Assembly: GCA_022793335.1 (NCBI GenBank)
Contig: JAAWCQ010000009.1
Coordinates: forward strand, 1 to 64,000
Reading direction: 5' to 3'
Source: Clostridia bacterium
GTDB lineage: Bacteria; Bacillota; Clostridia; Christensenellales; UBA1242
Length of the DNA: 64,000 bases
This document shows positions 1 through 41,200 of this stretch, piece after piece. Made by a program: the position numbers and the translations under genes. Below the pieces are notes generated by a model, which was not told where the DNA came from, did not search any database, and saw nothing but the letters and a program-made list of their open reading frames with translations. The first letter of the stretch is position 1; each line of letters starts with the position of its first letter.

Positions 1-22
1 AAAGCTTTTAGATAAAAATATT

Positions 23-53
23 AAAATCACATCATTTAAGATGTGATTTTTTT
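23..53 (+). terminator. Rho-independent terminator of an upstream gene
   Basis: An 11-bp perfect stem (23-33 with 40-50) and a 6-nt loop are followed by a T-run. It closes a transcription unit that lies outside the window to the left. Confidence 0.75.
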
Positions 54-177
54 ATATCTTTTTTAAGCAATATTTATACTTTTCTCTTGATTTTATCAAT
101 TTAAAGCAATATTTTTTCAAATTTGTTTGCATATTATATTAAAATGTGATAATATACTTGTGTAAAAGGAGGCGGCT

Positions 178-591
178 ATGATTCAATTTCTTCTTGCAGC
201 AGAACAATGGGTCGGAAATTATTCTTGGCTTAATGATGTTTATAAAACCTTGCCAAATATTCTTTATGCCATTTTAGCAGCTGTTGGTGGCGCGGGAATG
301 GTTTATTCTATTGTTCTTGGCGTCAATCTTGCCAAAAGTGAAAATGACGAAAAGCGTAGATATGCGGCATACAGAATTAGAAACACTCTTATTGGCGTGG
401 CTTGCCTTATCGTTCTTGTTTTATTTATAAATTTAGGTCTACCTGCCCTCATTAAAGCAATTGATCCAAATAGTTACGGCGACCCAGATAAACTTTTAAA
501 TGTCCCTGACGAGGACGACAGTGAAAGCACAGCTTCTATAATCCAAAATCTTAAGCTTATGGCACAACCACTTAAGCTTCTGTTCATTTAA
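178..591 (+). CDS. Small two-helix membrane protein, pilin-like (Mbov_0395/VirB2-like organisation)
   Basis: A 137-residue protein with a short N-terminal segment, a hydrophobic helix at about 27-50, a short charged loop (KSENDEKRRYAAYRIR) and a second helix at about 70-92. A polar tail rich in Asp, Glu and Ser follows. Two helices joined by a basic loop is the layout of small pilin-like conjugation proteins (TrbC/VirB2, Mbov_0395 type), but no other transfer gene lies nearby, so that link is weak. The start is set by AGGAGG at 167-172, 5 nt before the ATG. A weak promoter-like pair (TTTGCA/TAATAT) lies at about 126-155. It may simply be an unclassified membrane protein. Confidence 0.6.
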   Translation: MIQFLLAAEQWVGNYSWLNDVYKTLPNILYAILAAVGGAGMVYSIVLGVNLAKSENDEKRRYAAYRIRNTLIGVACLIVLVLFINLGLPALIKAIDPNSYGDPDKLLNVPDEDDSESTASIIQNLKLMAQPLKLLFI

Positions 592-643
592 TTTCACAAA
601 AACATAATTTAAAACATATAAACTTGTGTAAAGGAGATATACT

Positions 644-1054
644 ATGCACAAGTTTTTTTGTAATTACAACAACCTCACAGAAAGATATGAGCTTTCAATA
701 AACAGAGGCATGGCTTTTAAAAACAATGCTCAAATTCAAGCTGAAAACACCCTTTTGCCCGAAATCCAAAATGCCATTCAAGAGCTTTATGAAAACATTG
801 TTGAGCTTAAAGAGAAAGAAACAAATGAAGACAGATTAAATTTGCTTGACGAAACTGAGCTTATGATTTCAAACTTATATTATTCATTATTTTCCTCCCC
901 TCTTGAATTGCCAGAAAAGAAGGAAAATAAAAGTTTTAGCATTCAACATGGAATAGAGCTTGCAAATGGGCTGTTAAAAGTAATAAATATTCCAGAATAT
1001 TCCCGTCTTTGCAGTCTTATAAAAAATAATCTGGAAAGTCTCTTAAAAAATTAA
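644..1054 (+). CDS. Hypothetical helical cytoplasmic protein
   Basis: 136 residues, mostly predicted helix with a Glu/Lys-rich middle (about 40-70). It has no signal peptide or membrane segment and matches no family I recognise. The start has a good ribosome site (AAAGGAG, 7 nt before the ATG). It lies 52 nt after the small membrane protein on the same strand, so the two may be co-transcribed. Codon use resembles the neighbours. Confidence 0.6.
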   Translation: MHKFFCNYNNLTERYELSINRGMAFKNNAQIQAENTLLPEIQNAIQELYENIVELKEKETNEDRLNLLDETELMISNLYYSLFSSPLELPEKKENKSFSIQHGIELANGLLKVINIPEYSRLCSLIKNNLESLLKN

Positions 1055-1128
1055 GATATTATGAGCAAAGCAAGTAATTTTTACATAGTATGTTTATGGG
1101 GCAACCGCTCCATACAAAAGAGGTAAAT

Positions 1129-2139
1129 ATGTCTTGCTTTTTTCATAATCACAACAATCATTGTTGTCCTGGCAATAGACGACCAATTATTATAAATACT
1201 GGCGGAGGCGTTGGCCCTCAAGGATCTATGGGACCTGCTGGCCCTGTAGGTAATACTGGCCCAACTGGACCTCAAGGACCTTTTGGCCCAACTGGACCTA
1301 CTGGTTTAACAGGACCAACCGGACCAACTGGGCCTACTGGGCCTACTGGTTTAAGCATTACTGGGCCTACTGGACCTACTGGTCCAACTGGAGCTACTGG
1401 GGCCACTGGTATAACCGGACCTACTGGCATTGGGATAACTGGAGCAACTGGCCCAACAGGTCCTACTGGTCCAACCGGTGCGACAGGTCCTACAGGAGCG
1501 ACTGGAGCCACAGGCGCAACAGGCTTAAGTATCACTGGACCTACTGGGGCTACAGGAGCTACTGGGGCTACAGGTCCTACTGGTGCAACTGGGGCTACTG
1601 GAATTGATGGACTTTCAATAACCGGCCCAACGGGAGCTACCGGCGCGACTGGGGCTACTGGTGCTACCGGCCCAACTGGACCAACCGGAACAGCTGGTTT
1701 AAGTGCCTATGGTGGTCTTTATAACAGTGCACCACAAACAGCAGTTTTTCCTGCAGCAAACACCTTTATTCAAGTTGCACTTAATACTGCTCTGCCACTT
1801 TTAAACACTACAACTGCAGCAAATGCAGTCACTGTTTCAACTGCTGGCGTCTACGAGATTTTTTATAACCTCGAGCTTACAAATCCAAGTCAGCAATCTT
1901 ATGCTGCCGCAGCAAGAATTAACGGAACAAACATTCCTCAAACACTTGTGCTTTTAGACGGAAACTCAATTGGCGCTGTCGGAGGTAACTATACAGCAAA
2001 GATTTCAACCTCTGCACTTGTTACACTTGCAGCTGGAAATGTAATCGACCTTGCCATTTCAACAACCGATGCACCCGCTGGAACAAACACCATTGGTGCA
2101 AACGGAAATGCTATATTGACGGTAAAACGACTCAATTAA
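1129..2139 (+). CDS. Collagen-like surface protein with BclA-type C-terminal domain
   Basis: 336 residues in three parts. The head (1-26) is Cys/His rich. A collagen-like region of uninterrupted Gly-X-Y triplets, mostly GPT and GAT, runs to about residue 195 and is broken only by short GLSITGPTG-type phase units. The 140-residue C-terminal domain looks like the TNF-like trimerisation head of Bacillus exosporium protein BclA (motifs [24 protein letters not shown]). Such proteins trimerise into hair-like filaments on spores or cells, and the Thr residues of GPT triplets are glycosylation sites in BclA. An ATG lies 39 nt upstream in frame, but AGAGG at 1119-1123 sits correctly before ATG 1129, so I use 1129. 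There is no classical signal peptide, as in spore-coat collagens. Confidence 0.85.
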
Positions 2140-2175
2140 AAAAACAAACAACTTAATAATTAAAAAACTTACGCT

Positions 2176-2218
2176 TTAAAAAAAGCTTCTAGGATTTTTC
2201 CTAGAAGTTTTTTGTTTT
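2176..2218 (+). terminator. Terminator of the collagen-like gene
   Basis: A long stem (about 15 bp, one mismatch) around CTTCTAGGA/TCCTAGAAG with a T-rich loop is followed by TTTTTTG. It lies 40 nt after the stop codon and is the only terminator before the opposite-strand rdgB. Confidence 0.8.
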
Positions 2219-2258
2219 TTATTAACTGTCATGTAAAATAAATAATTACATAAAAATT

Positions 2259-2846
2259 TTAATTTAAATCAATTTTCAACAACTCAATTGCTCTTCCCCT
2301 ATGCGAAACAGCATTTTTTTCTTCAGATGTTGCTTCACCAAAAGATTTTTGCAAATCGTCAGAAAAGAATACTGCATCATATCCAAAACTTGTATCTCCA
2401 CGCTCTTCATTCAAAATCTGTCCGTAAGTTTTTCCTTCAAAAACTTTATATGTGCCATCCATTTCCATTTTAATCAGCGTGCATTGAAAATAAGCACTTC
2501 TCTTTTCTTTGCCATTCATTTCTTGTAAAAGTTTCTGCCTGTTTTTCTTGCTGTCATGCTCGCTTGCATATCTTGCACTATACACCCCTGGTTGACCATT
2601 TAATGCATCAACGCACAGACCACTATCATCGGCAATGACAATCGCACTTAAACCTTTTTCAAGCAAATAATTTCTTATAGTCTTTGCTTTAATAAGTGAA
2701 TTATCAAAAAATGTCTCTCCGTCTTCAATTATATCTTCATAAAAACCAATGTCATTTAATGCCAAAATCTCATAGCCTGAAAACATTTGTCTAAATTCTC
2801 TGATTTTATGTTCATTATTTGAAGCTAAAACTATTCTTTTTTCCAT
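2259..2846 (-). CDS. rdgB: Non-canonical purine NTP pyrophosphatase (RdgB/HAM1)
   Basis: 195 residues. It hydrolyses dITP, ITP and XTP to monophosphates, clearing deaminated purines from the nucleotide pool. Family motifs seen are the N-terminal (V)LASNNEHKIREF nucleotide-binding segment, ADDSGLCVDALNGQPGVYSAR in the middle, GYDAVFF, and SHRGRAIELL at the C-terminus, all in the usual order and length. An 11-codon upstream extension is possible, but AGAGGTG lies just before the ATG whose first base is 2846, and that start follows directly on the stop of the upstream methyltransferase-like gene, so the two are probably translationally coupled. Confidence 0.93.
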   Translation of the reverse strand: MEKRIVLASNNEHKIREFRQMFSGYEILALNDIGFYEDIIEDGETFFDNSLIKAKTIRNYLLEKGLSAIVIADDSGLCVDALNGQPGVYSARYASEHDSKKNRQKLLQEMNGKEKRSAYFQCTLIKMEMDGTYKVFEGKTYGQILNEERGDTSFGYDAVFFSDDLQKSFGEATSEEKNAVSHRGRAIELLKIDLN

Positions 2847-2848
2847 AA

Positions 2849-3604
2849 TCACCTCTTTTTTGGACTGCCTACAATCCAATTATCAATATTCTGTGTATTT
2901 TCAAGAAGCTCTTTTCCAAGATATCGCTCGTCCTCTCCAAAAGGATGAAAAGTAAGAGCCTCTTTAGCCCAATCGTCAAAATAAAAGAATGCTTTCAAGT
3001 TGTCAAAAGTTTTTCTTACAATTTTTTCAATGCACTCATCTTGCCCTTGATAAAACAAATTGCTTTTATATTGACTTAAAATAACCTTTCCAACATTCTT
3101 TTCATTAAAAAGTTTCACGAAAGTCTTGTTTAATTCATTTGTAATTTCTTGTATTGATTTTTTATCTTGGCTGAAATTATTCCAAACAGATAAATATCTT
3201 TCCCTATCCTTATTATTTGACAATAATTGATTATAATATGACTTGTTTACGTAACTCTCAAGCATTAAATCATCTATCACATGATTAGCAAGGAAAATGT
3301 CAATATTTTGAGGAAGAACATCAATCGCTTTTTCAAAAGTTTTGCAAATGCACTCTATTTTTGCGTTGGGTAAAATTTGTTTATACTTAAATTTGATATA
3401 TTCAGCAACATCTTTATTTGCATCAATGACAAAAAGCGTTCCGTCAAAGCCAAGTTCTGAAAGTGCTAAAGCAATTTTATAGCGAAAACCGGGTGCCAAC
3501 TCTACCGCCACTTTAGGCTTAGGCATATTTTCAATCAATTTAAAATATAATTGGCCTAAATACCACTCCCATTCGTCATCAACTTTTATTTCTTCAATAT
3601 TCAT
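2849..3604 (-). CDS. Hypothetical protein with a methyltransferase-like Rossmann core
   Basis: 251 residues. Around residues 30-110 it has VAVELAPGFRYKIALALSEL, then FVIDANKDVAEYIKFKY, then IDIFLANHVIDDLML. The spacing resembles motifs I, II and IV of class I SAM-dependent methyltransferases, but the glycine motif is degenerate (ELAPGF rather than E/DxGxGxG). The C-terminal half has no recognisable domain. It lies directly upstream of rdgB, 2 nt apart. A hairpin terminator separates it from the Ser-rich gene upstream, so it is probably not part of that operon unless read through. Function unknown. Confidence 0.6.
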   Translation of the reverse strand: MNIEEIKVDDEWEWYLGQLYFKLIENMPKPKVAVELAPGFRYKIALALSELGFDGTLFVIDANKDVAEYIKFKYKQILPNAKIECICKTFEKAIDVLPQNIDIFLANHVIDDLMLESYVNKSYYNQLLSNNKDRERYLSVWNNFSQDKKSIQEITNELNKTFVKLFNEKNVGKVILSQYKSNLFYQGQDECIEKIVRKTFDNLKAFFYFDDWAKEALTFHPFGEDERYLGKELLENTQNIDNWIVGSPKKR

Positions 3605-3640
3605 AACTAAAACCCTTTTATTTTAAAGAGAAAAAATATT

Positions 3641-3663
3641 GAAAAACGACGCCAAAAAGGCGT
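3641..3663 (-). terminator. Terminator after the Ser-rich small protein gene
   Basis: On the minus strand an ACGCC-TTTTT-GGCGT hairpin (5 bp) is followed by cgTTTTT. It lies between the small Ser-rich gene and the methyltransferase-like gene and marks a likely 3' boundary of the SelO/radical SAM operon. The stem is short, so some read-through is likely. Confidence 0.55.
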
Positions 3664-3705
3664 AGAATTATTAAAACAATAATTGCAATAAATTTTCTTT
3701 AATGT

Positions 3706-4047
3706 TTATTCAAGTTCGTCATCTATATCTTCGAAAGGCTGTGTTTCTGATGCATCATTAAGCTTATCAAATCTTCCACTAACAAAGATAGATTTAAAAG
3801 TTGCAACGATTTCTGGATCTGAGCTTTCTTTAAATTCTTTTATAAAGCTTTCCTTCTCTTTTTCATACTTTTCTTTTGATTGAAGATATTCTGTTTTCTT
3901 CTGTTTCATTTCTTTTTCTGCGTTATTCAATTTTTGTAATGCATCAATCATCTTTTCAAGAGTTGTCTTTGAAGTCGAATAACTTGAACGACTTGATGAA
4001 CTTGAACTTCCCTTTCCACTATATGATGCTCTTCTATAGCCACCCAT
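3706..4047 (-). CDS. Small Ser/Tyr-rich coiled-coil protein; candidate substrate of the operon
   Basis: 113 residues. The first 30 are low complexity (GGY, RRAS, six consecutive Ser, then RSSYSTSK), holding about 15 Ser and 3 Tyr. Residues about 30-75 form a Lys/Glu coiled coil, and an acidic tail follows. There is no signal peptide. GGAGG lies 5 nt before the ATG at 4047; an in-frame upstream ATG overlaps that site and is less likely. It is the last gene of the operon with a GNAT, a radical SAM enzyme and a SelO-like protein. The hydroxyl-rich head is what an AMP-, phospho- or acyl-transferase would modify, so a substrate role is plausible but inferred. Alternatively it is an unrelated structural protein. 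Confidence 0.7.
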   Translation of the reverse strand: MGGYRRASYSGKGSSSSSSRSSYSTSKTTLEKMIDALQKLNNAEKEMKQKKTEYLQSKEKYEKEKESFIKEFKESSDPEIVATFKSIFVSGRFDKLNDASETQPFEDIDDELE

Positions 4048-4109
4048 AATTACCTCCATTTATTATAATTAAATTTTATCATAATACACATTAAAAGTCA
4101 AGATTTAAA

Positions 4110-5963
4110 TTATATAAAATCTTCAAAAGCCTCACATTTAAGCATATTTCCATTGACTTGAAATTGAACATCAAGCTCATCAACATCAACAAACCTTTTC
4201 AGCTTTATACTCTGGCTGATTAAATAGTTTTCTTCATGGCTTAAATAATAATCCTTACCATTGATAAACACTTTTGCAAAACTTGGCGATAGTGTATGAA
4301 AAGGTTTGAAAATTATTTTGATTTCATCCTTACAAACAGCAAAATAATATAGAAATTCTTTGCAAATTTTAAGGCCAAGTTTTGCCGAATATTGCAAATT
4401 ATTTTTGACAACCCTCTTGTTTGCTTCTATTACAGAATTTAAAATTAAATCTAAATCTATATTATCAAACAGCCCTCTTTCATAACACAAATAAAGATTG
4501 TCAAATACATTATTATTGTTGTAAAGATAGTGTCTGTCATAGTTTCTGACATAACAATTAAATTTAATCTTTTCAAGCTCTTTTTCACTGCATTGCTGGT
4601 AAATTTTTTCTACAAGATTTGTAATTTCTCTCACCTCTTCAAAAACATTTAAAGACATCTGTTCATCATCAACAGAAACAAGCTCTTTAAAATTTTCTTC
4701 AACAAACTCTTTCATAAAGCCAAGTTTTTCATAATTTATATTTATGGTTGAATTAACAAGAAGTGACAAAGCTGTCATAAAATCATTATTTTGACGCTTT
4801 TTTATCAAATATTTTGCAAAAAAACGCGAAAAATTGTAAATATAAGTGTTGTTTACATAATTTGAATTGACATTAAGCTCATTATAATTTGGCAAAAATT
4901 TTCTTGACAATGTAATGAATTTATTAAACAGCACCTCTATTTCATTTTTATTTTTCTTTAAAAAAACAGTATCATCAATTCCAAGCAGTTGGCAAAAACC
5001 TTTCTTGAGATGTTTATTATAAGACCTGTCAATTATCTTTTCTGCACTTTTATAATCATAGCCACCGACAAGAGTTGGACTGTATTCGATCATATTTTTC
5101 ATCATCAGTTTTTGTCCCAAAATTTCATAACCAAAATAGTTTGATTTATATTTATTGGTGTTTGAAAATTGTGGATGTCTGCCCTCTACAAAGCTGCAAG
5201 TGTCAAAATCAAGCATATTACTTTGTGTAGTCAAATTGCCTGATGACCAAGCGCCATGCAAAAAGCGGTCTATAAACTTATTTGCCTCCATCTTTCCAAT
5301 ATTCTTGCATAACAAAACAAAATCTTTTTCATTAAATTCAATGTTATCTGCTATTTTATTGCTTATTCGATAAAACTCTCCATTCTCATAATATCTTATT
5401 TCAATCGCCTCTTTAAGCGGATAAAACTCATCGCAAACATTATCATCTTCATCTTGATACTGCTGTCTAAAAATATATTTAACCCCCTTATCAAAAACTG
5501 CCAATGTTTTGAAATTGTTTATGGCAAAATCTTCTGCAAGTACATTTGACAGCACGCCTTCCTTAATTGCCGCCTGCAAGCAAAATTTTCCATCGCTGTA
5601 ATAGATATCTTTCGCTTTGGCAAGTGTTGTTTTTTCACCCTTTATGTTGAAATTTCTGCCGCAAAAGAAAGCTCTGCCAGAGCCGAGATTGCCACCAAGC
5701 GAAATTCCACTCGCATCTTTTTGCACATCCGCAAAGCCGCAAGCCAAAATTTCCCCACTCGACATATTTTTGTCTAATGTCAATGAAAAAAGTTTAGACA
5801 GCTTTTGCCAAGAATTTTCGTTGAATTTTTCTTTAAAAATTTTTTCATACAGCTTTTTATTGACAAACACAGGAACATAATCTCTTTTTGCCCTATAAAT
5901 CTCTTGAGCTGCAAGATTTTTTTCCTTTATGAAGTTTGCAATTATAGGTCTTTCATTTATCAT
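4110..5963 (-). CDS. Divergent SelO-like pseudokinase (possible AMPylase)
   Basis: 617 residues. Residues 90-160 follow the SelO/YdiU order: GSGRA (94-98, SelO GDGRA), IKGEKTT (107-113, SelO LKGAGKT), AAIKEGVL (131-138, SelO SSIREFL), then FKTLAVF. Residues 236-260 read HGAWSSGN then MLDFDTCSF, aligning with SelO HGVMNTDN and IDYGPFGF. The ion-pair Lys (K108) and Glu (E135) and the metal-binding Asn (N243) and Asp (D252) are kept with the usual 9-residue Asn-Asp spacing. The catalytic Asp before the Asn is Gly (G242). SelO transfers AMP from ATP to Ser/Thr/Tyr; this variant may be inactive, use another base, or do other chemistry. The C-terminal half is unrecognised. The gene lies between the radical SAM gene (49 nt) and the Ser-rich gene (62 nt). 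The match is by eye. Confidence 0.68.
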   Translation of the reverse strand: MINERPIIANFIKEKNLAAQEIYRAKRDYVPVFVNKKLYEKIFKEKFNENSWQKLSKLFSLTLDKNMSSGEILACGFADVQKDASGISLGGNLGSGRAFFCGRNFNIKGEKTTLAKAKDIYYSDGKFCLQAAIKEGVLSNVLAEDFAINNFKTLAVFDKGVKYIFRQQYQDEDDNVCDEFYPLKEAIEIRYYENGEFYRISNKIADNIEFNEKDFVLLCKNIGKMEANKFIDRFLHGAWSSGNLTTQSNMLDFDTCSFVEGRHPQFSNTNKYKSNYFGYEILGQKLMMKNMIEYSPTLVGGYDYKSAEKIIDRSYNKHLKKGFCQLLGIDDTVFLKKNKNEIEVLFNKFITLSRKFLPNYNELNVNSNYVNNTYIYNFSRFFAKYLIKKRQNNDFMTALSLLVNSTININYEKLGFMKEFVEENFKELVSVDDEQMSLNVFEEVREITNLVEKIYQQCSEKELEKIKFNCYVRNYDRHYLYNNNNVFDNLYLCYERGLFDNIDLDLILNSVIEANKRVVKNNLQYSAKLGLKICKEFLYYFAVCKDEIKIIFKPFHTLSPSFAKVFINGKDYYLSHEENYLISQSIKLKRFVDVDELDVQFQVNGNMLKCEAFEDFI

Positions 5964-6012
5964 AATTCCTCTTGATAATTCATCATATTGTTTTAAATAT
6001 CGTAAATTTTTA

Positions 6013-7113
6013 TTATTTTATTAAGTTGTGCTTTTGACAATATTTAATGCAAAACTCGCACGCCATACATGGCGTTTCAACTTGTTTTTCCTTCAACACT
6101 CTTTCGGTAATTACATCACGAAAACTTATTGTCCCATAATTCTGAATAAATTTTATGTATTTATTTGAGTTGTAGTTTTCAAGCACTTTCTCAATTCCAT
6201 CTGAAAATAAATTGCCAAGAAAGACATCTTTATGCATATTAAAAATTTCACAAGGATAACAATCTCCATTTACCTTCATAAATATCTTCGGACTTACAAA
6301 TTTTCCAATTTCTTGTGCGAATTTGTTGTCACACTGTCCTATTTTTTCAAAAACGCTTTCAGTCTCAACAACAAGTTTATCGCCTTGGCCTTCTACATAG
6401 TTTTTATATTCAGAAAGAGTAAGAAAAACTCTTTTTTCTGGAAAACTGCCATATTTATTCAAATAAGTTTCATAAAGCTGGCTAAGTTTATCTCCCGTCT
6501 TTTCACTCATTGTAAAAATAATTCCAAGATGAAGCTGCGACATAGAATAATTTTCAGAAACATACTTGATAATATTGCAAATGTATTCAAGAGGGACATC
6601 TTGTTCGCCAATCGACAATTGAATAGCTGGAATAAAAATGTTATTTTCAAAAAAGCCTGCATTTTTAAGGCCATCAAAATATTTTTCAACCTCTCTGCCC
6701 CAAAAACCATTTGAAATTAGCTTTATTGCATCAAGTTTTCCTTTGCAAAGTTTAATAAAATTGCACATATTTTCAAATTCCAAAAAAGGCTCGCCACCAG
6801 TAATCGCATAAGATGGAATGCCAGCCTGTTGACAAAAATCTGATATAGTTTTTAATTTTTCCATATTTAGTTTAGCCCTATTTATCCCTCTGCCTGCAGA
6901 CATTCCACAGTGCTCACAGCAGCAGTTGCACTGATTTGTAATTTCAAAGGTGAATTGTATTGGTCTGATAGAATATTTCTCGCACAACTTGCCTTTTTGA
7001 AAAATTTTGACAGCTTGATAAAAATTATTTGTTTTCGCGCTATATTTTCCCTCTGTCAGAGAGCTTTGGTCTATGGACAGAAATTTTTCAATCAATGTTT
7101 CGTCTAATTTCAT
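6013..7113 (-). CDS. Radical SAM/SPASM-type peptide- or protein-modifying enzyme
   Basis: 366 residues. The radical SAM cluster motif CX3CX2C is C62, C66 and C69 within QCNCCCEHC, followed by AITGGEPFLEF (GGEP, SAM binding). The C-terminal part has NGDCYPCEIF with a following FLGNLF, and a final CX2CX2CX3C group (C349, C352, C355, C359). This is the auxiliary-cluster layout of SPASM/twitch proteins, most of which modify peptides or enzymes (PqqE, anSME and sactipeptide-maturase relatives). The start overlaps the stop of the GNAT gene by ATGA, so the two are translationally coupled. The SelO-like gene follows after 49 nt. The substrate is unknown; the Ser-rich protein in the same operon is the obvious candidate (inference). 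Confidence 0.88.
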   Translation of the reverse strand: MKLDETLIEKFLSIDQSSLTEGKYSAKTNNFYQAVKIFQKGKLCEKYSIRPIQFTFEITNQCNCCCEHCGMSAGRGINRAKLNMEKLKTISDFCQQAGIPSYAITGGEPFLEFENMCNFIKLCKGKLDAIKLISNGFWGREVEKYFDGLKNAGFFENNIFIPAIQLSIGEQDVPLEYICNIIKYVSENYSMSQLHLGIIFTMSEKTGDKLSQLYETYLNKYGSFPEKRVFLTLSEYKNYVEGQGDKLVVETESVFEKIGQCDNKFAQEIGKFVSPKIFMKVNGDCYPCEIFNMHKDVFLGNLFSDGIEKVLENYNSNKYIKFIQNYGTISFRDVITERVLKEKQVETPCMACEFCIKYCQKHNLIK

Positions 7114-7568
7114 TTTAAATCCTTTAAAAGCCAGTGTTCAATTTCTTCTTCTATTTTATAAAGCTTGAAACCTTGTTTTTTATAAAATTCATTGGCTGTT
7201 TTAAATCTTTCATAAGTGCAAAGTATCATCTGTTTAAAATTGTGTTTTTTGGCAAAATCTTCTATTAAACTATACATTCTGCTTCCAAGTTTGCAATTTC
7301 TCATATTTTTTGCGACATAAAAACTGTTGAGCTTTATGACATTGTCATCAACTTTAAGCCCTCCACAGCTGCCGACCATCTCATCATTTTCATCAACAGC
7401 TATAAGAAATAAGCTTTCACCTTTTTCATAACTTGAAAAATCTTTATTGTCAAGATAATCCTTCCATGCCGTAAACCCAAACTCTTCTATTGCAATACTT
7501 TTAATAAAAGCGATTATATCTTGTCTTAAGCTTTTATCATAAGTAATTATTCTTATATTATCAATCAT
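7110..7568 (-). CDS. GNAT-family N-acetyltransferase
   Basis: 152 residues with a complete GNAT fold: beta strands with FLIAVDENDEMVGSCGGL, the acetyl-CoA binding stretch SFYVAKNMRNCKLGSRMY (R/Q-x-x-G-x-G/A variant: NCKLGS), and a C-terminal KTANEFYKKQGFKLY signature. It moves an acetyl group from acetyl-CoA to an amine; the substrate cannot be told. It is the first gene of the operon and its stop overlaps the radical SAM start. A sigma-A promoter with TATAAT ends only 6 nt before the ATG, so the mRNA is probably leaderless or nearly so. Confidence 0.88.
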   Translation of the reverse strand: MIDNIRIITYDKSLRQDIIAFIKSIAIEEFGFTAWKDYLDNKDFSSYEKGESLFLIAVDENDEMVGSCGGLKVDDNVIKLNSFYVAKNMRNCKLGSRMYSLIEDFAKKHNFKQMILCTYERFKTANEFYKKQGFKLYKIEEEIEHWLLKDLK

Positions 7569-7574
7569 TCTTTA

Positions 7575-7604
7575 ATTATAATATTACTCCCCCTTTTATG
7601 TCAA
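7575..7604 (-). promoter_or_regulatory. Sigma-A promoter of the GNAT/radical SAM/SelO operon
   Basis: On the minus strand TTGACA (7604-7599), an 18-bp spacer and TATAAT (7580-7575) match the consensus in both boxes. The ATG starts at 7568, so transcription should begin at or within a base or two of the start codon. Confidence 0.7.
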
Positions 7605-7623
7605 TTTTTATCGTTAAATTTAA

Positions 7624-7648
7624 AATAAAAAAGCCTTTGGCTTTTACT
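7624..7648 (-). terminator. Terminator after the deleted FAD oxidoreductase
   Basis: The minus strand reads AAAAGCC-AAA-GGCTTTTTT, a 7-bp stem with T-run, 70 nt beyond the stop of the remnant gene. It separates that gene from the operon promoter just downstream. Confidence 0.7.
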
Positions 7649-7718
7649 TTTATGAATAAAAAAATAATAAATATTTAATTTTTAAAAAGACTGTTGACAA
7701 AAGCTCAACCATCAAAGC

Positions 7719-8450
7719 CTATTGGCGCATAGGCGAAAACAGATTTTTTAAAGGATTTTCTCTATTTTTAAGCAAATCTTCAATCAATTTTGCCCCACTC
7801 ATAGCATTTATTATTCCATTTGCGCCAGCACTTAAAAAATATAAAATATTGGGGTTTTCGCTTCTTCCAATCAAGCCAAGATTGTTTGGAGTAGAGCCAA
7901 ATACACCACAAAACTCGTATTCAGTCTCAATCAAATCTTCATATTTTGGAAGCATTTTCTTCAAATCTTTAAGGAGTTTATCATACTTTTTCTTAGCAAG
8001 CTTTAAATCTATTTCTTTTTCTTTAAAAGTGGTATCTTCTCCGCCAAAAATAAGTCGATTATCTGGCAATATCCGCAAATAGTGATAGGGCTCTTTATCA
8101 TCTTGAACAAGTGCGTTTTCTTTCCAAGACAGGTTTTCAATAGGTTTGGTTACAATTGAATAAGACACCACCCTGTCAATCAAATTCTTCTCTTTCATAA
8201 GTGAAAAGTCAAAGCCAGTGGAAAGAATAAGATTTTTGCAAGTTATCATATTTCCAAACATTATATTTCTGAGACAGATAAAATTAAGTATGGCGCCATC
8301 TATACCACCACCTATTATCAAAATATCACTTTTTATGTTTTGATTTAAATAAGGATACTGTTTTATTCTATCCTCAGCCTTACAAAAATAAGCATCACCT
8401 GCAATGTATTTCATATAATTAGCATTTTCCAATTGCATTTTTATATTCAA
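7719..8450 (-). pseudogene. FAD-dependent oxidoreductase (DAO/glycine oxidase family) with internal deletion
   Basis: The frame is open but the protein is only about 240 residues. The N-terminus has the family's YPYLN lead-in and the dinucleotide motif DILIIGGGIDGA. After a few residues it jumps to KNLILSTGFD, which in intact relatives follows the whole FAD-domain middle, then gives the normal C-terminal half (SIVTKPI, YHYLRILPDNRLIFGGED, FLSAGANGIINA). Roughly 140-150 residues are missing without loss of frame. The remainder cannot form a complete FAD domain, so the gene is probably non-functional. The start is uncertain: TTG at 8450 or ATG at 8438, neither with a clear ribosome site. Confidence 0.75.
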
Positions 8451-8517
8451 TTCAAAGGTTTTTATTTGAAATAAGTAAAATCAATAAAATTGCCATAGTT
8501 AAATAAATTTCACTTAA

Positions 8518-8591
8518 ATTTTAACAAAATTGAAATAATTCAAAGATTTTTGGTCATTTTGTTTTTAAAAAATGAAAAATTTTGTTAAAAT
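8518..8591 (+). promoter_or_regulatory. adhE upstream region with a 14-bp inverted repeat
   Basis: ATTTTAACAAAATT (8518-8531) and its exact reverse complement (8578-8591) flank 46 bp of AT-rich DNA ahead of adhE. The TTAACAA/TTGTTAA half-sites resemble those of the redox repressor Rex, which controls adhE in clostridia, but here they are spread apart rather than in one 18-bp palindrome. No clear -10/-35 pair was found. Confidence 0.4.
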
Positions 8592-8631
8592 CAATAGGTG
8601 TGAAATAAAACAATATGGGAGGAATTAAACA

Positions 8632-11241
8632 ATGAAAGATGAAAGCACAGATGTATTACAAGAAATAGACAGTCTTGTAAAAAATGGTAAAAAGGCTTTG
8701 GAAGAATTTAGAAAGCTTAATCAAGAGCAAATTGACTTCATTGTTGCAAAGTGCAGCGTTGCAGGTCTTGACAGGCATGGCGAGCTTGCATTGGCAGCTA
8801 TTGAAGAAACAAAGCGAGGCGTATTTGAAGATAAAGCGACAAAAAATCTCTACGCCTGTGAATATGTAGTAAACAACATGCGTCACCTTAAAACTGTAGG
8901 CGTGATAAGTGAAGACCCAGTCACTGGAATTATTGAGGTGGCCGACCCTGTCGGTGTTGTCTGCGGCATTACACCTGTCACAAATCCTACTTCTACAGTT
9001 TTATTTAAGTGTCTTATCAGTTTAAAGACAAGAAATCCAATCATATTTGCCTTTCATCCTTCTGCTCAAAATTGTTCTAAAAAGGCAGCACAGGTTATGC
9101 TTGACGCTGCGGTAAAAGCTGGAGCGCCTGCAAATTGCATTCAATGGATTGAACATCCATCTATGGACGCGACAAGTGCACTTATGAAGCATGATGGCAT
9201 TGCAACTATTTTGGCCACAGGCGGAAACAGCATGGTTAAGTCAGCTTATTCTTGTGGAAAGCCAGCACTTGGAGTTGGCGCGGGAAATGTGCCTGCATAT
9301 ATTGAAAAGTCTGCCGATATCAAACAGGCTGTAAATGACATTGTTCTAAGCAAAGCATTTGACAATGGCATGATTTGTGCATCTGAACAAGCGGTCATTA
9401 TTGATAGTGAAATTTATGATGAAGTAATTGAAGAATTTAAAAAATTTAATGTTCATTTTGCGACTAAAAAGCAAAAAGACATGCTTGAGCGTTTTATGTT
9501 TGGAATAGACGAAAAGCGTGCAAATCTTGACGAGGCAAGGTTAAACCCAAATATCGTTGGCCATTCAGCATTTGATATTGCAAAAGAAGCTGGTTTTAAG
9601 ATTGATGAAAGAACACCTGTTCTTTGCGTTGAATGTGACGAAGTGGGCATAAAAGAGCCACTCACTCGCGAAAAATTATCGCCAGTGCTTGCAGTTTTGA
9701 AGGCAAACTCTCTTGAAGAAGGCTTTGACCTTTCTTGCAAAATGGTTGAATTTAATGGACTTGGTCACAGTGGCTGCATTCATACAAAAAGCAAGGAAAT
9801 TTCTGAAGAATTTGGAAGGCGCGTTAAAGCTATGAGAATTATCTGGAATTCCCCTGCAACCTTTGGCGGAATTGGAAATATATACAACTCTTTTCTTCCT
9901 TCTCTTACTCTTGGCTGTGGAAGCTATGGAAATAACTCGGTTGGTGGCAATATCAGTGCCATAAACCTGCTTAACATCAAAAAAATAGGAAAAAGGAGAA
10001 ACACAATGCAGTGGTTTAAAGTCCCACCAAAGATTTATTTTGAAAGAAACTCTATTCAATATTTGCGTGATATGAAAAAGGTCAACAAGGTATTTATTGT
10101 CACTGATAGAACAATGCTTGACCTTGGCTTTGTCAATAAGATTACCGAACAGCTCAACCTTAGACGCGATAAGGTGCAAGTTTCACTATTTTGTGATGTA
10201 GAACCAGATCCAGATATTTCAACAGTAAGAAAAGGTCTTGAAGTAATGAAAGCCTTCCAACCTGACACTATTATTGCGCTCGGCGGCGGCTCACCTATGG
10301 ACTGCGCAAAGGGTATGTGGCTGTTTTATGAAAATGAAGACATTGACTTTGATGACCTTAAACAAAAATTTATGGATATAAGAAAGCGTGCCTTCCGTTA
10401 TCCTGAAGTTGGCAGAAAAGCAAAGTTGGTCTGCATCCCAACCACTTCAGGCACTGGAAGTGAAGTGACACCTTTTGCAGTTATTTCAGACAAAGAAAAT
10501 AATAAGAAATACCCTCTTGCAGACTATGCCCTTACTCCAAAAGTAGCGATTATTGACAGTGAATTTACAACAATGCTTCCACCTTCTGTAACTGCTGACA
10601 CAGGCATGGATGTGCTCACTCATGCCCTTGAAGCTTATGTTTCAGTGCTGTCAAATGACTATACAGATGGGCTTGCTCTTCAAGCAATTCAAATGGTGTT
10701 TAAATATCTTCCAAGAGCTGTCAAAAACGGCAAAAATGACCTTGAAGCAAGAGAGAAAATGCACAATGCATCCACTATTGCTGGCATGGCTTTTGCAAAC
10801 GCTTTCTTAGGAATGAATCACTCGCTCGCACATAAAGTTGGTGCTGTTTTCCATACTCCACACGGTCGAGCAAATGCTATTTTACTTCCACATGTAATAA
10901 GATATAACGGGCAAGTGCCTGACAAACTTCAAGCATGGCCAAAATATAATCACTATGTTGCGCATGAAAAATATCAAACTGTGGCAAGGCTTCTTGGGCT
11001 TGCTGCTTCCACCCCTGCTGAAGGTGTAGAAAGTCTTGCAAATGCTGTTATGGCTCTTGGAAAACAAGTGGGCATAAAGATGAATTTTGCCGAGCAAAAT
11101 ATTACCGAAAAAGACTGGATTGACAAACTTAATGAAATCGCATACATGGCTTATGAAGACCAATGTTCACCTGCCAATCCAAGAGTGCCAATGGTGGAAG
11201 ATATGAAACAAATTCTGCTTAAAAGTTTTAAAGGAAACTAA
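8632..11241 (+). CDS. adhE: Bifunctional aldehyde/alcohol dehydrogenase AdhE
   Basis: 869 residues, the usual AdhE length. The N-terminal half is a CoA-acylating aldehyde dehydrogenase (PVGVVCGITPVTNPTST; catalytic Cys in FDNGMICASEQ). The C-terminal half is an iron-dependent alcohol dehydrogenase (GGGSPMDCAKGMW, TTSGTGSEVTPFAV, and the metal-binding segments AFLGMNHSLAHKVGA and FHTPHGRANAILLPH). Together they reduce acetyl-CoA to ethanol with two NADH, the standard redox sink of fermenting anaerobes; the enzyme forms spirosome filaments. GGGAGG lies 9 nt before the ATG. The gene is monocistronic and converges with aspartase on a shared terminator. Confidence 0.97.
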   Translation: MKDESTDVLQEIDSLVKNGKKALEEFRKLNQEQIDFIVAKCSVAGLDRHGELALAAIEETKRGVFEDKATKNLYACEYVVNNMRHLKTVGVISEDPVTGIIEVADPVGVVCGITPVTNPTSTVLFKCLISLKTRNPIIFAFHPSAQNCSKKAAQVMLDAAVKAGAPANCIQWIEHPSMDATSALMKHDGIATILATGGNSMVKSAYSCGKPALGVGAGNVPAYIEKSADIKQAVNDIVLSKAFDNGMICASEQAVIIDSEIYDEVIEEFKKFNVHFATKKQKDMLERFMFGIDEKRANLDEARLNPNIVGHSAFDIAKEAGFKIDERTPVLCVECDEVGIKEPLTREKLSPVLAVLKANSLEEGFDLSCKMVEFNGLGHSGCIHTKSKEISEEFGRRVKAMRIIWNSPATFGGIGNIYNSFLPSLTLGCGSYGNNSVGGNISAINLLNIKKIGKRRNTMQWFKVPPKIYFERNSIQYLRDMKKVNKVFIVTDRTMLDLGFVNKITEQLNLRRDKVQVSLFCDVEPDPDISTVRKGLEVMKAFQPDTIIALGGGSPMDCAKGMWLFYENEDIDFDDLKQKFMDIRKRAFRYPEVGRKAKLVCIPTTSGTGSEVTPFAVISDKENNKKYPLADYALTPKVAIIDSEFTTMLPPSVTADTGMDVLTHALEAYVSVLSNDYTDGLALQAIQMVFKYLPRAVKNGKNDLEAREKMHNASTIAGMAFANAFLGMNHSLAHKVGAVFHTPHGRANAILLPHVIRYNGQVPDKLQAWPKYNHYVAHEKYQTVARLLGLAASTPAEGVESLANAVMALGKQVGIKMNFAEQNITEKDWIDKLNEIAYMAYEDQCSPANPRVPMVEDMKQILLKSFKGN

Positions 11242-11305
11242 AGAAAATTCCAATTAAAAATTACTGAAAAATTTAAATAATATTGCAAAAAATGCGAAAA
11301 AATCA

Positions 11306-11335
11306 AAAAATCTTAGGAAAATTCCTAAGATTTTT
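11306..11335. terminator. Bidirectional terminator between adhE and aspartase
   Basis: A 14-bp perfect stem (11306-11319 with 11322-11335), A-rich on one arm and T-rich on the other, gives a T-run on both strands. It serves adhE on plus and aspA on minus. Confidence 0.85.
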
Positions 11336-11374
11336 GTATTTTTAGTTAAATTATCTCAATTTTTTTAAAATTTA

Positions 11375-12787
11375 TTACTTAGCCTTTTTCATGTGGTGAG
11401 GCTCTGTAACTTCAAATGGGGACATGATTTCTTCAAGTTTATTTTCGTCTAAAAGCCCAGCTTCAAGCACAAGTTTTCGAAGTGGAATACCTGTTTTTAA
11501 AGCTTCTTTTGCAAGTCGAGCAGCCTCTTTATATCCGATATATGGAGTAAGTGCAGTTGCCATTCCTACGCTATGCTCAAGCAGGTCATTACACCTGTTT
11601 GGATTGGCTGTTATGCCAACTATACAATTATCAATCAAAGTTGAAATTGCACTTGTTAGGCATTCGATACTTTCAAAAAGCGAATAGAAAATCACCGGCT
11701 CAAAAGCATTCAATTCAAGTTGCCCCGCCTCAGCTGAGAAATTGACAGTCACATCATTTCCAAACACCTTATATGCAACTTGGGAAACAACTTCTGGTAT
11801 AACAGGGTTGACCTTTCCTGGCATGATTGAAGAACCGTTTTGTTTTGCTGGCAAATTGATTTCATTGAGTCCTGTCCTTGGCCCACTTGACATGAGTCTT
11901 AAGTCATTGCACATCTTTGAAAGTGTGACTGCAAGCGTTTTAAGAGCACCTGAGAGTTTTACATAAACCTCGATATTTGATGTTCCGTCAAACAGGTCTT
12001 CAGTCTGCTTGAAATCCTCTCCACACACCGAGCAAATTGAAGAAACAATATTATCAAGATAAAAGCCGTCAACAGTGATTGCACTGCCAATTGCACTTGC
12101 ACCCATATTTAAAAAATGAATGTCTTCTTCGGCAAGCATAATATTATTTGTATCGCGTTTTACTGCAGTGGCAAAGGCATGAAAACTTTGACCAAGCCTC
12201 ATTGGCACAGCATCTTGTAATTGCGTTCTACCCATTTTCAATATGCCGTCAAACTCTTTCGCCTTGTTCATAAGTGACAAATAAAGCCTGTCCAGCTGTT
12301 GATATAATGGCTTCAATAGAGCTATCAATGCCAGCTTTCCAGCAGATGGATATATGTCATTTGTAGATTGCGACATATTTACATGGTCATTTGGATGAAC
12401 GATTGAATAGTCGCCCTTTTCTCCACCTAAAATTTCAATTGCCCTGTTTGCAATCACCTCATTTGCATTCATGTTTGCAGAGGTGCCAGCCCCTCCTTGA
12501 ATTGCATCCACAATAAATTGGTCATGCCACATTCCATCAATAATTTCATCACAAGCTTTGACAATTGCCCCTTCAATTTCACTTGAAAGCCTGCCTGATG
12601 CATAGTTTGTCATAGCACAGCTTTTTTTAAGTTTTGCAAGCGCGACAACAAGCTGCGAGTGAATGTTTTTGCCTGTAATATTGAAATTTTGATTTGCCCT
12701 TAAAGATTGTATTCCATAATAAGCACATTTAGGGACATTTAAATTGCCAATAGAGTCCCCTTCTTCTCTAAACGCCATTTTATCCAT
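11375..12787 (-). CDS. aspA: Aspartate ammonia-lyase (aspartase)
   Basis: 470 residues. It converts L-aspartate to fumarate and ammonia. The fumarase/aspartase superfamily signature GSSIMPGKVNPVIPE is intact, as are the N-terminal YYGIQSLRA, the substrate-binding GGAGTSANMNANEV, NMSQSTNDIYPSA and the GRTQLQDAVPMRLGQ block. YYGIQ and TNDIYPSA favour aspartase over fumarase (which has TNDxxPTA). The start is the ATG at 12787, with GAGG 6 nt upstream; an earlier in-frame ATG would contain the ribosome site. It lies convergent to adhE, supplying fumarate or ammonia in fermentative metabolism. Confidence 0.93.
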   Translation of the reverse strand: MDKMAFREEGDSIGNLNVPKCAYYGIQSLRANQNFNITGKNIHSQLVVALAKLKKSCAMTNYASGRLSSEIEGAIVKACDEIIDGMWHDQFIVDAIQGGAGTSANMNANEVIANRAIEILGGEKGDYSIVHPNDHVNMSQSTNDIYPSAGKLALIALLKPLYQQLDRLYLSLMNKAKEFDGILKMGRTQLQDAVPMRLGQSFHAFATAVKRDTNNIMLAEEDIHFLNMGASAIGSAITVDGFYLDNIVSSICSVCGEDFKQTEDLFDGTSNIEVYVKLSGALKTLAVTLSKMCNDLRLMSSGPRTGLNEINLPAKQNGSSIMPGKVNPVIPEVVSQVAYKVFGNDVTVNFSAEAGQLELNAFEPVIFYSLFESIECLTSAISTLIDNCIVGITANPNRCNDLLEHSVGMATALTPYIGYKEAARLAKEALKTGIPLRKLVLEAGLLDENKLEEIMSPFEVTEPHHMKKAK

Positions 12788-35255: not shown

Positions 35256-38200
35256 ATGGCAGAAACAAATAAGCGTCAAGAAGTTGTCAATCATATTAAG
35301 CTGTTAAACCAACACAAACAGCCTATTTTGGATGAAACCAAAAATCCTATTGTTATTGACCAAAAAATAAGCTTAGACACAGAGTCTAAACATTTTATTG
35401 ATTTTAAGGGCTCTTTCACAAACGAAAGTGGCAAAGAGACCAAATCTGTTTTGACAGTTGATAAAGATCAAGCTGGCAATTTTTCAGTTGGCATTCCAAA
35501 CTTAAATTTGTTTGTATCAGAAACTGGCGAATCGCTTGCTTCCGTTTTAGGTGCTGAAGGCAATTCAATTTCTTTAACTCCATTAAACACTCCTCCAAGC
35601 AAGATTGCAACCTTCCAAAATGGAGATGAAACCTGCTTTGAAATTTTGGCGGAAAGTGGTCAAATTCTTTTAATAACCACAAATGGAAACAGCGTTTCAA
35701 TTCAGACCAAAGAAAATGAAAACGCCCCTGCCAAAGATTTTATTTATCAAGTTGAAAAAGGCAGTGGACTTGACATTGACCTGCAACCTGAAGCGGTTGA
35801 AGCCTTTTTTGACCCAAGCAATGAATTTTTTCATACTGACATAAAACAAATTACAGATTTCCCTACAAACATTTTGGCAATGTATGCAAAATTGAAGACT
35901 GGCGTAAATGAGCAAACAAGAATTGGCAAATTTACTATGACGGTAATTTCTCAGAATGAAAATGCCGAGCCTTTCTTCTTTATGACAAGACACTCTCAGC
36001 GTGCAAATGCTCAAGACAACAATTATTTATTATTTGAAAATAAATTTTATTCTGTTGAAAAACTTCTCTTTCAAAAAGACCCTTCTGATGGAAAGTTGAG
36101 AATGGTTTTTCAAATTCAACCAAGGACTGGCAATAAAAAATCTGAAACAAACAAAAGAGCTGTTGCTTATGACCTCGAAGTTGATGAAAATGGAAGGCTT
36201 ACACCTCAGTCATTAAAAGTTGTAAATTATATGAGAAGTGTTTGTGCTTATGCTGAGCCTACTACTCATAATGAAGGCGATATTGAAGTTGAAACTGATG
36301 ACGGAAAAATTGTTTTTGAGCAAAAAGACAGAAGAGATTATTCAAACTATCAATATTATGTAGCTTCAAACAATTCAAACAGAACAGTTTACACCGAAGA
36401 CCCACAAAATGGCAAAGATGGCAAGAGTGCTTATGAGATTGCCGTTGAACATGGCTTTAGTGGCACCGAAGAGGAATGGCTTGAAAGTTTAAAAGGTCAG
36501 GACGGCAAAAGTGCTTATGATATTGCAAAAGAACATGGTTTTCAAGGCAGTGAAGAAGAGTGGCTTGAAAGTTTAAAAGGCACGCCTGGACTTCCTGGTA
36601 TCAATGGTCAAGATGGCAAAGATGGTAAAGATGGCAAGAGTGCCTATGAAATTGCTGTTGAACATGGCTTTACTGGCTCACCTGCCGAATGGCTTGACAG
36701 CTTAAAGGGTGAAAAAGGCGAAAGTCTTTATGACATTGCTAAGCGAAATGGTTTCACTGGCAGTGAAAAGGACTTTATTGAAAGCTTAAGAGGCGCAGAA
36801 GGCAAAAGCGCTTACGAGATTGCACAAGAGCTTGGTTTTAAAGGCTCTAAACAAGAATGGCTTGACAGTTTGAAAGGTCAGGCTGGCAAAGATGGCGAAA
36901 ATGGCAAGAGTGCCTATGATGTTGCTAAAGAACACGGCTTTGAAGGCAGTGAAGAAGATTGGCTGAGAAGTTTAAAAGGCGCACCTGGCAAAAATGGTAA
37001 AAATGGTAAAAATGCCTATGAATTGGCGGTAGAAAATGGTTTTAAAGGCTCACCTGCCGAGTGGCTTGACAGTTTGAGAGGAGAACAAGGCCAGCAAGGC
37101 GAAAAGGGCGAAAGTTTATATGACATTGCCAAACGAAATGGTTTTACTGGCAGTGAGGCTGACTTTATCGCCAGCTTAAGAGGCAAAAGTGCTTATGATA
37201 TTGCAAGAGATCACGGTTTTGAAGGCAGTGAAGAAGATTGGCTGAGAAGTTTAAAAGGTCAGGACGGAAGTGATGGAAGCGACGGCGGTGACGGAAGCGA
37301 TGTAAATGCCGGTGAAAATGGAAAAGATGGCGAGAATGGTCGTGATGGAAGAAATGGCCGTGATGGAGAAAACGGAAGAGATGGTAATGATGGAAGAGAT
37401 AGCGAAGATAATTCTTTAAATCCACCACAAAACGACATCGAAGATTTAGAGCAAGAACAGCCTGAAGAAAAGAAGGAAAAACCTGCTCCAAAGCCTGCTG
37501 AAGCCCCTCCTGCTGAAAAGAATTTTACTAAACTTGCTGACGCTTTTGGAACAGCCTTTGCATATCTTGGCGTGTTTATTGCAATTGGCGCAATACTTAT
37601 ACCTGGTTTTGCTGCCCTCGCAATAGTGGGCTGTCTCGTTTCACTCGCTGGTGTGACAACTTCAACTTTAAGTGACAAATTTAAATTTACTCCATTCAAA
37701 GCTGCTGAAAAGAAAATCAAAGAGCTTGAAGATCAAGAAAAAGAAGACAAAGAATTTGAAGAAGATTTCCTTTCAAATGAAAAAGATCTTGACAAAGCTG
37801 CAGATCTTACTGATGCAAAAGCAAAAGAGCTTAATGATTATTTAAGAGAGTTTTATACAGATCCAAACAATGAATTATCTCAATTCACTGGAATTTTTGA
37901 AGAATATGGTATAGGTTTTTCAGATATTAAAGATGCTGAAAGGGCTAAGCCAGCAGAAGAACGAAACAATTATGCAAGAACAGAGGCTATGGTTGGTCGC
38001 GACGGACTTGAAATAAGGCGTCAAATGGCAACCGATTTAAGAAATATTCAGGCCTCTCAAGATGCCGCTGTAAGAGCGCAAATGATAGATCAATTTATTG
38101 ATACAAACTTCAGACCAATGCCTCAACCTGTTAGGACCGCTTTACTTGACAACTTGTTTGGTGGCGGCGCTGAAGGCAATGAAAGACTCACCGCTTTTGT

Positions 38201-41200
38201 AACTAAACTTGAAGAAACTGTCTCTTATGGAGACCAAGAAAGAAAAATTCTTGATATTCAACATAAGGCAATTGACAATGCAAAAGACAGCAGTGTTAAC
38301 AGGCTTATAAATTCTTCTAAGATAAATGCAGAACAGAGAGCTCGTATTGTTAAAAGATATTCACATCAGCTTGTAAGACGCTATGCAAACGACCAAAATA
38401 TGAACGAAGAAAAGCTTAATAAGACACTTGAAAAGCTTCCAGAAGAAGAACAACAAGTGATTATTGACACTTTGATAAATGCTCAAGAACAAATCGAACA
38501 AGAAACTGCCCATATTGAAGAAGTTGCTCACGACAATCGCGAGCTTGTTGCAAATGCGAATGAAGCTGGAAGATATATTAAAGCTGTTTATGCTATCGAA
38601 AACGGGCCAGTAAGCACCTATAATGAAGCTACATCGGCTGTAATTGATATGCTTAAAGAGCGCACTGCCCTTGCACACAAAACCAGCATTTCTATTGCTT
38701 CTATAAGAAAAGCTACTAAAAATGCTCAAACAGATTTGGATGTAAATTCTTCAGCATATAAAATTGTAGAACATACTGCCGAAATGGTGGGAAGCTTTTC
38801 AAATATGGCAAACTCTAAAGAGGTGTCAACAAGTTATCAAAACATGATGAATATCTTGTTTACAGAATTTCCTGAGGTTGCAAGCTCTTATTTGGGAAAT
38901 GACATTCCTGCCCCTACTGGAAATAAACAACACAATATTGATCAGATGATTGAAAATATCGCTGCATGTCCTGGTGAAAAGGCTGATAGGTTAAAAACCG
39001 CACTCGAGGCTTATAGGAATGCAAGAAAAACTGCTGGAAGCGTCATGAGAACGCATCTTAGCAAACCTATAGAAAGTATACTTGCACAAGTATTCACACA
39101 AGAAATCAGAGATACTTTACAAACTGATGAAGCTCGAGCAGCCTTTAATGCGCGCATCACTAAAAAAGTAACCGAGCTTAACAAAGAAAGTTTCTTCCGT
39201 AATCATATTTACAATGATAAAAATGCCCAACTTCATACAAGATTGGCAACAGCAATTATGCTTATTGAAGATAAGCTTAGCGACAAAAATCTTCCTAAAA
39301 ATGAAAAAGACGCACTTAACAGAACATTGAAGTCATTGTCTAGTGTTGTAAATGGAACGCTTGCTGAAGTTGCCCTTGAGAGTTGTGTAATAACTGCTAT
39401 TGACGGCAAGAGTGGTGTTAAACATGATGAAAAAACACTGGAAGAAAAAACAAATATTGCAAATGGCAAAATTAAAGGCTATAAAAGAGCTTTAGATATT
39501 ATTACGAACATGAAATTGCCAACTGAAAAAGATGAAAATGGCAAGACTGCTACACAAAGAATAATTGAAAGCTTTAAAGCCATTACTTCAGTTAAGGACG
39601 CCTCTGCCACAACTCAACTTTTAAACATATTGAATGAAACAGTTGTTGGTGGTGAAAAATTAGGCTCAAAAGTTATCGAAGAAAACGAACCTTCATTTAA
39701 AGAGATTTATGAAGCTTCAAGAATGACTTCTGATTTGATTGGCAAAAAAGTTGATAAGCTTGGAAACCTTTCTCAAGCGGAAAAAGACTCTGTCAAAGCA
39801 AAAATTAAAACTGACTATCAAGTGATTTCCGCTGACCCTAAATCATCTAGAAAAGACATTGAAACAGCTATCAAAGCTGCCTTTGGAAATTCTGGGCTTG
39901 ACGATAAGACACTGAAAAAGATTAAAAAAGATATTGAAGACATTGCAAAATATGGTGCTCAACCTATCGATATTCAACATGCTGAAAAACAGATCAGAGA
40001 CAAAATACAAAGTCTCAATAAGCGTGCAAATAAGGAAGTGCATTGCCACGACGAGAGAGTGGGTCAAGCACAGGCTGAAAGAGAATATGCTCATCATAGA
40101 GCAAAACTCAGTCGAAAAGACAAAGATTTTGCTTATGAAACTGTTTATGATATGATTTTTGCTCTTGCTGATAAAGAGAAATTTAAAGAAGAATACAATA
40201 AAACTTGCGAAGAAAGCGAGAAAATTACAAATGAAGAAGAGCTTCTTGCAAAACTTCAAGAGGACATTGACAAACAAAGCAAAAAACTTGCACCAAAGAA
40301 GCTTGCTGCCCGTTATGGAATTTCTAAAGAAACTTACGCTAAGAAAGAAAACAAGCTTCAAATTTATGAAAATGTTTACGAGCTTTTAGAGGCTATTGCT
40401 CCTGACAAAACAGCTGAAGAAGTTGAAGAGATTATTCGCACTGAATTTCTTAACAACCCTAAGATTACACCTGCTAAACTTGCAAAAACATTAAATATTC
40501 CAAAAGCATTCTTTAAAGACAGTCTTGCACAGCTTTCTTCAAGAGGAGTTACTGAAGAAGGTCAAAAGAAACTTTGGCTTAAGAAGAAAGAAATGGATGA
40601 GTTTAATGATGTTGCTGACGAATTTACTACTGCATGGAAAAAACTTGTGGAAGCTGAAACAGCTGAGGAATTGGACAACAGCAGTATATTGGCAATTGAA
40701 GCGTTTGTTGAAAATGCCAAAAATGAGAGTTATCGAAGGGCTGAAAGGGCAAAAGAACATAAAGAAAACCTCAAAGGTGCAACTGGCGCTGAAAGAAGCA
40801 GAAGAAAGAAAGAAAATCAAGCTGATGAAAAAGCGAATAAAAAGAAAGGCAAAGAAAGAAAAGCTATTGACGAAAGAGCAACCCACTATGCAGATGTTCT
40901 TGCTCGCATTGGCTTGAGCATTGAGGCTCTTGATAAGATTGTCAAAGAAGCTAAGTCTTCTGACCCTGCTACTAGAGAAATCGCTGTTAAACAGCTTGCC
41001 GAAATCAATGCCACCCTTCAACCAGAAAAGAAAATTGAAGGCGCAAAACTTGATATTCAAAATGACTATGAAACTATTGCTGTATTAAACAATACACAAT
41101 TCTCAAATCAAGACAAAGCTTTAGTTTCGGCTATGCAACAACTTGACGAATTTGTAAAAGCAAGTGAAGACTTGACTAAAAAGCTTGACTTCCTTGCATC

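Follow-up and report, generated by a model that had tools for sequence, protein, structure and literature searches.

A putative Clostridia operon joining a remote SelO relative to a YydG-like radical SAM enzyme and an acetyltransferase, with a small Ser/Tyr-rich protein as a possible substrate

Two of the genes described here have their closest described relatives in the SelO/YdiU family and in the peptide epimerase family YydG/EpeE. In E. coli SelO, the substitution D256A abolishes activity and V242A raises it (excerpts of PMC12375108), and in the SelO-related NiRAN domain the Asp beside the metal Asn has been proposed as the base (excerpts of PMC8863163). For EpeE, excerpts of PMC5682303 give Cys223 as the hydrogen donor. 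The open-license literature yielded no description of a gene set that combines a SelO-type protein, a radical SAM enzyme and acetyltransferase or peptide-modification functions.

A set of this composition is encoded in a Clostridia bacterium (GCA_022793335.1; 1.4 Mb in 17 contigs), within the window analyzed here, which comprises 64,000 nucleotides (positions 1 to 64,000 of contig JAAWCQ010000009.1; Table 1). All four minus-strand reading frames named in an earlier sequence-only reading are present at the positions it gave. In the order of transcription, a GNAT gene is followed by genes for a radical SAM enzyme, a 617-residue SelO-like protein and a 113-residue Ser-rich protein, then by a hairpin terminator, a methyltransferase-like gene and rdgB. 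A 4-base overlap joins the GNAT gene to the radical SAM gene, while gaps of 49 and 62 bases precede the SelO-like and the small gene, respectively; the gene set includes no export or peptidase gene. Recent foreign DNA was considered and dropped, as the four genes have codon scores inside the range of 14 reference genes of the window, though their G+C content is lower (29-32% versus 35-41%). An RNA element was likewise dropped, Rfam giving no match in positions 1-12000.

Table 1. Coordinates of the predicted genes and signals at the locus, in the order of transcription
Feature	Position	Strand	Evidence
Promoter TTGACA-18-TATAAT	7575..7604	-	12/12 consensus match, -10 box ending 6 bases before GNAT ATG
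GNAT acetyltransferase, 152 aa	7110..7568	-	Pfam Acetyltransf_1 E 9.3e-15
Radical SAM enzyme, 366 aa	6013..7113	-	NCBIfam YydG E 3.7e-14; YydG structures E 1.4e-12; CX3CX2C and Cys-rich C-terminus
Remote SelO-like protein, 617 aa	4110..5963	-	SelO profile 16.4 bits; hhalign P 1.3e-5
Promoter-like site of 113-aa gene, TTGACT-17-TAAAAT	4073..4101	-	10/12 match, TG before -10
Small Ser/Tyr-rich protein, 113 aa	3706..4047	-	ORF and composition; no match above curated cut-off
Hairpin terminator	3649..3663	-	5-pair stem, then T run; fold z -2.0
Methyltransferase-like protein, 251 aa, beyond terminator	2849..3604	-	Weak matches only, EgtD E 0.018
rdgB, abutting the methyltransferase-like gene	2259-2846	-	ORF position

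In positions 2200-8700, only the GNAT promoter reaches the full 12/12 score, and because it lies only 6 bases before the ATG, a near-leaderless GNAT mRNA, as previously proposed, is plausible. The further proposal that this one promoter drives four genes needs qualifying: the 113-aa gene has a promoter-like site of its own at 4101-4073 and is preceded by GGAGG, and one promoter therefore need not drive all four. The terminator noted after the four genes is a 5-pair stem at 3663-3649, although 7 of 200 shuffles fold equally well. A scan of this AT-rich stretch yields 49 promoter-like sites where 31.6 are expected and 5 terminator-like sites where 2.6 are expected; single sites are therefore weak evidence, and among the predicted promoters we regard only the GNAT match as compelling.

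The relation of the 617-residue protein to SelO is distant. The Pfam SelO model gives no match to it at E values up to 10, nor to any part of the genome, and NCBIfam YdiU reaches only E 0.0042, its 16.2 bits falling short of the 431-bit cut-off. With a profile built from six SelO sequences (A4), the protein obtains 14.1 bits where the top score among 2,000 shuffles is 7.3, but five of these six sequences had been picked by their similarity to the protein itself. For this reason a new profile was built from eight SelO proteins, comprising that of E. coli and seven from viral contigs that were found through A4 and not directly by the 617-residue protein. This profile gives 16.4 bits, while none of 2,019 controls (2,000 shuffles, the reversed protein and 18 window frames) exceeds 5.3; in hhalign it scores 41.7, and the highest of 319 control scores is 26.3. 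With A4, hhalign aligns residues 67-360 at P 1.3e-5 and a probability of 80.5. From these sequence comparisons we conclude that the nucleotide-binding core of the protein and that of SelO have a remote common ancestor. The frame is intact, with ordinary codon use and a chance of about 1e-22 that 617 codons would stay open at its base composition.

Aligned with six SelO proteins, the 617-residue protein keeps Gly94, Gly96, Arg97, Glu135, Asn243 and Asp252. The last three correspond to E130 (which we take to be the alpha-C Glu), N247 and D256 of E. coli SelO, and the Mg-binding Asn and Asp of SelO are thereby retained. Ala238 occupies the position of V242. Gly242, however, stands opposite D246, the Asp proposed as base; there is a gap where SelO has its SHxR segment; and Ala115, adjoined by Lys116, lies opposite the invariant beta-3 Lys. 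Among six SelO proteins 78 columns are invariant, and in a separate alignment that includes the 617-residue protein 29 are. AMP transfer to Ser or Tyr, the activity first envisaged, is weakened because the proposed base position holds Gly. AlphaFold models do not sharpen the picture: mean pLDDT is 34.5 for the protein alone and 42.9 when 12 SelO rows, including two partial ones, are added, and although SelO/YdiU structures take ranks 1-7 in a PDB fold search with the latter model, their E values are 0.24 or worse and the result is circular, as the alignment held SelO rows. The sequence-only reading of a divergent SelO-like protein thus stands as to homology above controls, whereas the Pfam SelO model misses the protein and many SelO-invariant residues are altered.

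Pfam Radical_SAM matches the radical SAM enzyme slightly below the model's cut-off (E 3.1e-6; 27.9 bits versus 29.5), NCBIfam YydG scores 52.9 bits against a cut-off of 300, YydG structures match residues 56-218, and identity to a Macrococcoides YydG is 27%. These matches support the peptide epimerases YydG/EpeE, a peptide-modifying family, as its nearest relatives. The enzyme and the Macrococcoides protein share CX3CX2C, SNGFWG, YPC and a C-terminal CX2C, but the YPCC of the Macrococcoides protein is YPCE here, without the aligned second Cys. We infer that this second Cys is EpeE Cys223 from near-equal numbering (221-222 in the 320-residue Macrococcoides YydG, EpeE itself being outside the alignment); if it is the hydrogen donor, the donor is missing, and plain epimerization is therefore not expected. 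Auxiliary-cluster cysteines, claimed together with a SPASM domain, are plausible given six Cys among residues 285-366, whereas Pfam SPASM has no match at E values up to 1; in NCBIfam, PapB matches residues 262-364 with its C-terminal part. In another genome of the class (L038), a relative with 25% identity lies near a LanM-like gene, in keeping with peptide modification generally. In that stretch (L038:6891-10941, + strand), the YydG-like gene is two genes before the LanM-like gene, and several more radical SAM genes lie downstream.

Two other assignments were dropped. Anti-phage defense had been suggested by a PADLOC viperin match (9.5e-7), which covers only residues 56-137, the radical SAM core; the PADLOC matches of the small protein and the GNAT are weak (5e-4 to 7e-4). 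Elp3, a radical SAM-GNAT fusion, differs from the radical SAM enzyme in its Cys spacing.

The 113-residue protein consists of a basic head (residues 1-33, pI 10.3) and an acidic remainder (residues 34-113, pI 4.7); serine accounts for 12 of the first 32 residues. The Ser-rich head that had been pointed out is borne out by comparison: at 12 Ser in 20 residues, it is the densest Ser stretch among the 91 ATG-started window frames of at least 60 residues, the next two frames having 11 and 10. No Pfam or NCBIfam model matches the protein above its curated cut-off, and the weak matches are of coiled-coil type (Pfam BBS1, E 0.0019; PADLOC LmuB, 5.4e-4; PHROG 15369, 2e-4). No relatives were found in 60 other genomes, or in plasmids, phages or viral contigs. 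CotH-type kinases act on Ser-rich coat proteins; this parallel was dropped, as there is no Pfam match. The role of the 113-residue protein as substrate is our inference from adjacency and composition only. Two repetitive proteins are also encoded in the window: a collagen-like protein at 1090-2139 (+), which carries long GPTGPT repeats and whose C-terminal domain we take to resemble that of exosporium BclA proteins, and a 2,169-residue protein at 35256-41765 (+), in which collagen-like GKDGK repeats occur along with recurring units of the SAYEIAVEHGF type.

Conserved co-occurrence had been named beforehand as the test of a shared pathway, and no second copy of the set was found in the genomes, phages, plasmids and viral contigs sampled. 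The class, order, phylum and relative samples of genomes overlap. Relatives of the SelO-like protein were found in none of 100 other relatives' genomes, in none of 397 other genomes of the phylum, and in no phages, plasmids or viral contigs. In 390 other genomes of the class there were three weak matches (E 0.003-0.008), two of them canonical SelO (L003, L004) and the third (L005), a 262-aa frame, read as an unrelated reductase matching by chance. Profile A3 matched two canonical SelO proteins in 296 other genomes of the order; a third match (E 0.006), to a short frame with internal stops, was set aside as chance. A genome-contig scan with the SelO-like protein alone, which relies on exact 8-residue patterns and has low sensitivity, gave no match, and the same scan with alignment A2 had four SelO proteins among the matches listed. 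Radical SAM matches occur in 12 of 100 other relatives at E values up to 1e-3 and in 2 of 390 other class genomes at up to 1e-9, and neither the YydG plasmid locus nor ten stretches around such matches (one only 3.3 kb long) encode a SelO-like, small or methyltransferase-like relative.

For rdgB, 13 of the 45 other genus genomes gave a match; at eight of these loci the neighbors differ, and none is related to the radical SAM, SelO-like or methyltransferase-like proteins, though a GNAT lies about 3 kb off at one of them. The methyltransferase-like gene lies beyond the terminator; its product has two weak matches in 60 other genomes, so that its membership in the set is unsupported. An adhE-like gene (8632-11241, +) adjoins the set on its other side, and just 1 of the 45 other genus genomes has a match to it at E 1e-100, so that conservation is lacking on this flank too. 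A DAO-type FAD oxidoreductase gene at 7719-8450 (-; 243 aa) appears internally shortened, with an N-terminal dinucleotide-binding start followed by Pfam profile positions 195-352 of 353, and is probably decayed.

Taken together, the data lead us to favor, tentatively and with considerable reservation, a lineage-specific operon that modifies a protein or peptide, the neighboring 113-residue protein being the likeliest substrate. As read from the sequence, the overlapping GNAT and radical SAM genes follow, with the SelO-like gene, one strong promoter match. The radical SAM enzyme would alter a peptide or protein by carbon-radical chemistry, the SelO-like protein would bind Mg and a nucleotide and then transfer the nucleotide or activate a group, and the GNAT would acylate an amine; the Ser/Tyr-rich head of the small protein would offer acceptor side chains, and its charged tail could aid recognition. 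Gene order, the 4-base overlap, the predicted GNAT promoter, the SelO relation relative to controls and YydG as the nearest radical SAM family speak for such an operon, as do the 25%-identity radical SAM relative beside a LanM-like gene and the conserved Glu135, Asn243 and Asp252, the equivalent change D256A inactivating E. coli SelO (excerpts of PMC12375108). Against it stand the single occurrence of the set among the samples, the possible separate transcription of the small gene, the lack of an export or peptidase gene, the missing base Asp and SHxR segment, Ala115 at the invariant Lys and the low pLDDT of both models. The own promoter-like site and the 62-base gap of the small gene, together with its weak coiled-coil-like matches (BBS1, PHROG 15369), would also fit a possible but doubtful alternative, in which the three enzyme genes form one unit whose target is some other protein or a small molecule, the 113-residue protein being a separately transcribed, unrelated coiled-coil protein; its place on the same strand, in the same gene run ahead of one terminator, and its extreme Ser head argue otherwise.

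Since the base position is lost, the SelO-like protein might serve as a scaffold, AMPylate by means of another base, or activate a carboxylate as SidJ does. It could be a pseudoenzyme or decaying orphan that binds a nucleotide or partner without catalysis, the radical SAM enzyme and GNAT working with or without it; Gly at the proposed base, the loss of invariant columns and the lack of relatives in the sampled genomes agree with this, but we consider it unlikely given the intact 617-codon frame, ordinary codon use and retained Mg-site residues. Very unlikely, in our estimate, is activation of a carboxylate as an acyl-adenylate in the manner of SidJ, which would need no acceptor base and might draw on free glutamate or on the small protein's acidic tail. 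The loss of the base position with retention of the Mg site and the tail pI of 4.7 are consistent with it, and SidJ transiently AMPylates glutamate (excerpts of PMC8548325), but the likeness is by analogy only. Within the favored operon reading, it would be a bold and rather improbable extension to propose a new protein or peptide modification pathway whose single dedicated target, a Ser/Tyr-rich protein, is modified by three enzymes: a SelO derivative lacking the usual base, a radical SAM enzyme and an acetyltransferase. The groups activated might, for instance, be carboxylates and not hydroxyls. If true, a far-diverged SelO that keeps its metal site without the proposed base, beside a peptide-type radical enzyme, would represent reuse of the fold in a dedicated pathway, and a set of only four short genes lends itself to joint testing.

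A yyd-type plasmid locus has the YydF peptide, a peptidase and an ABC transporter, none of which is among the genes of the set by ORF, Pfam or NCBIfam analysis. The 617-residue protein shares with SelO/YdiU (~480 residues, ~20% identity) the glycine-loop LGxGRA, the Glu at E. coli E130, HG....xN and the Asp at D256, but has Gly at D246, and the GHQFG and SHxR segments are changed or missing. With SidJ, a pseudokinase acting as a protein glutamylase, the likeness would be one of analogy: there, too, a kinase-like protein is used for adenylylation chemistry.
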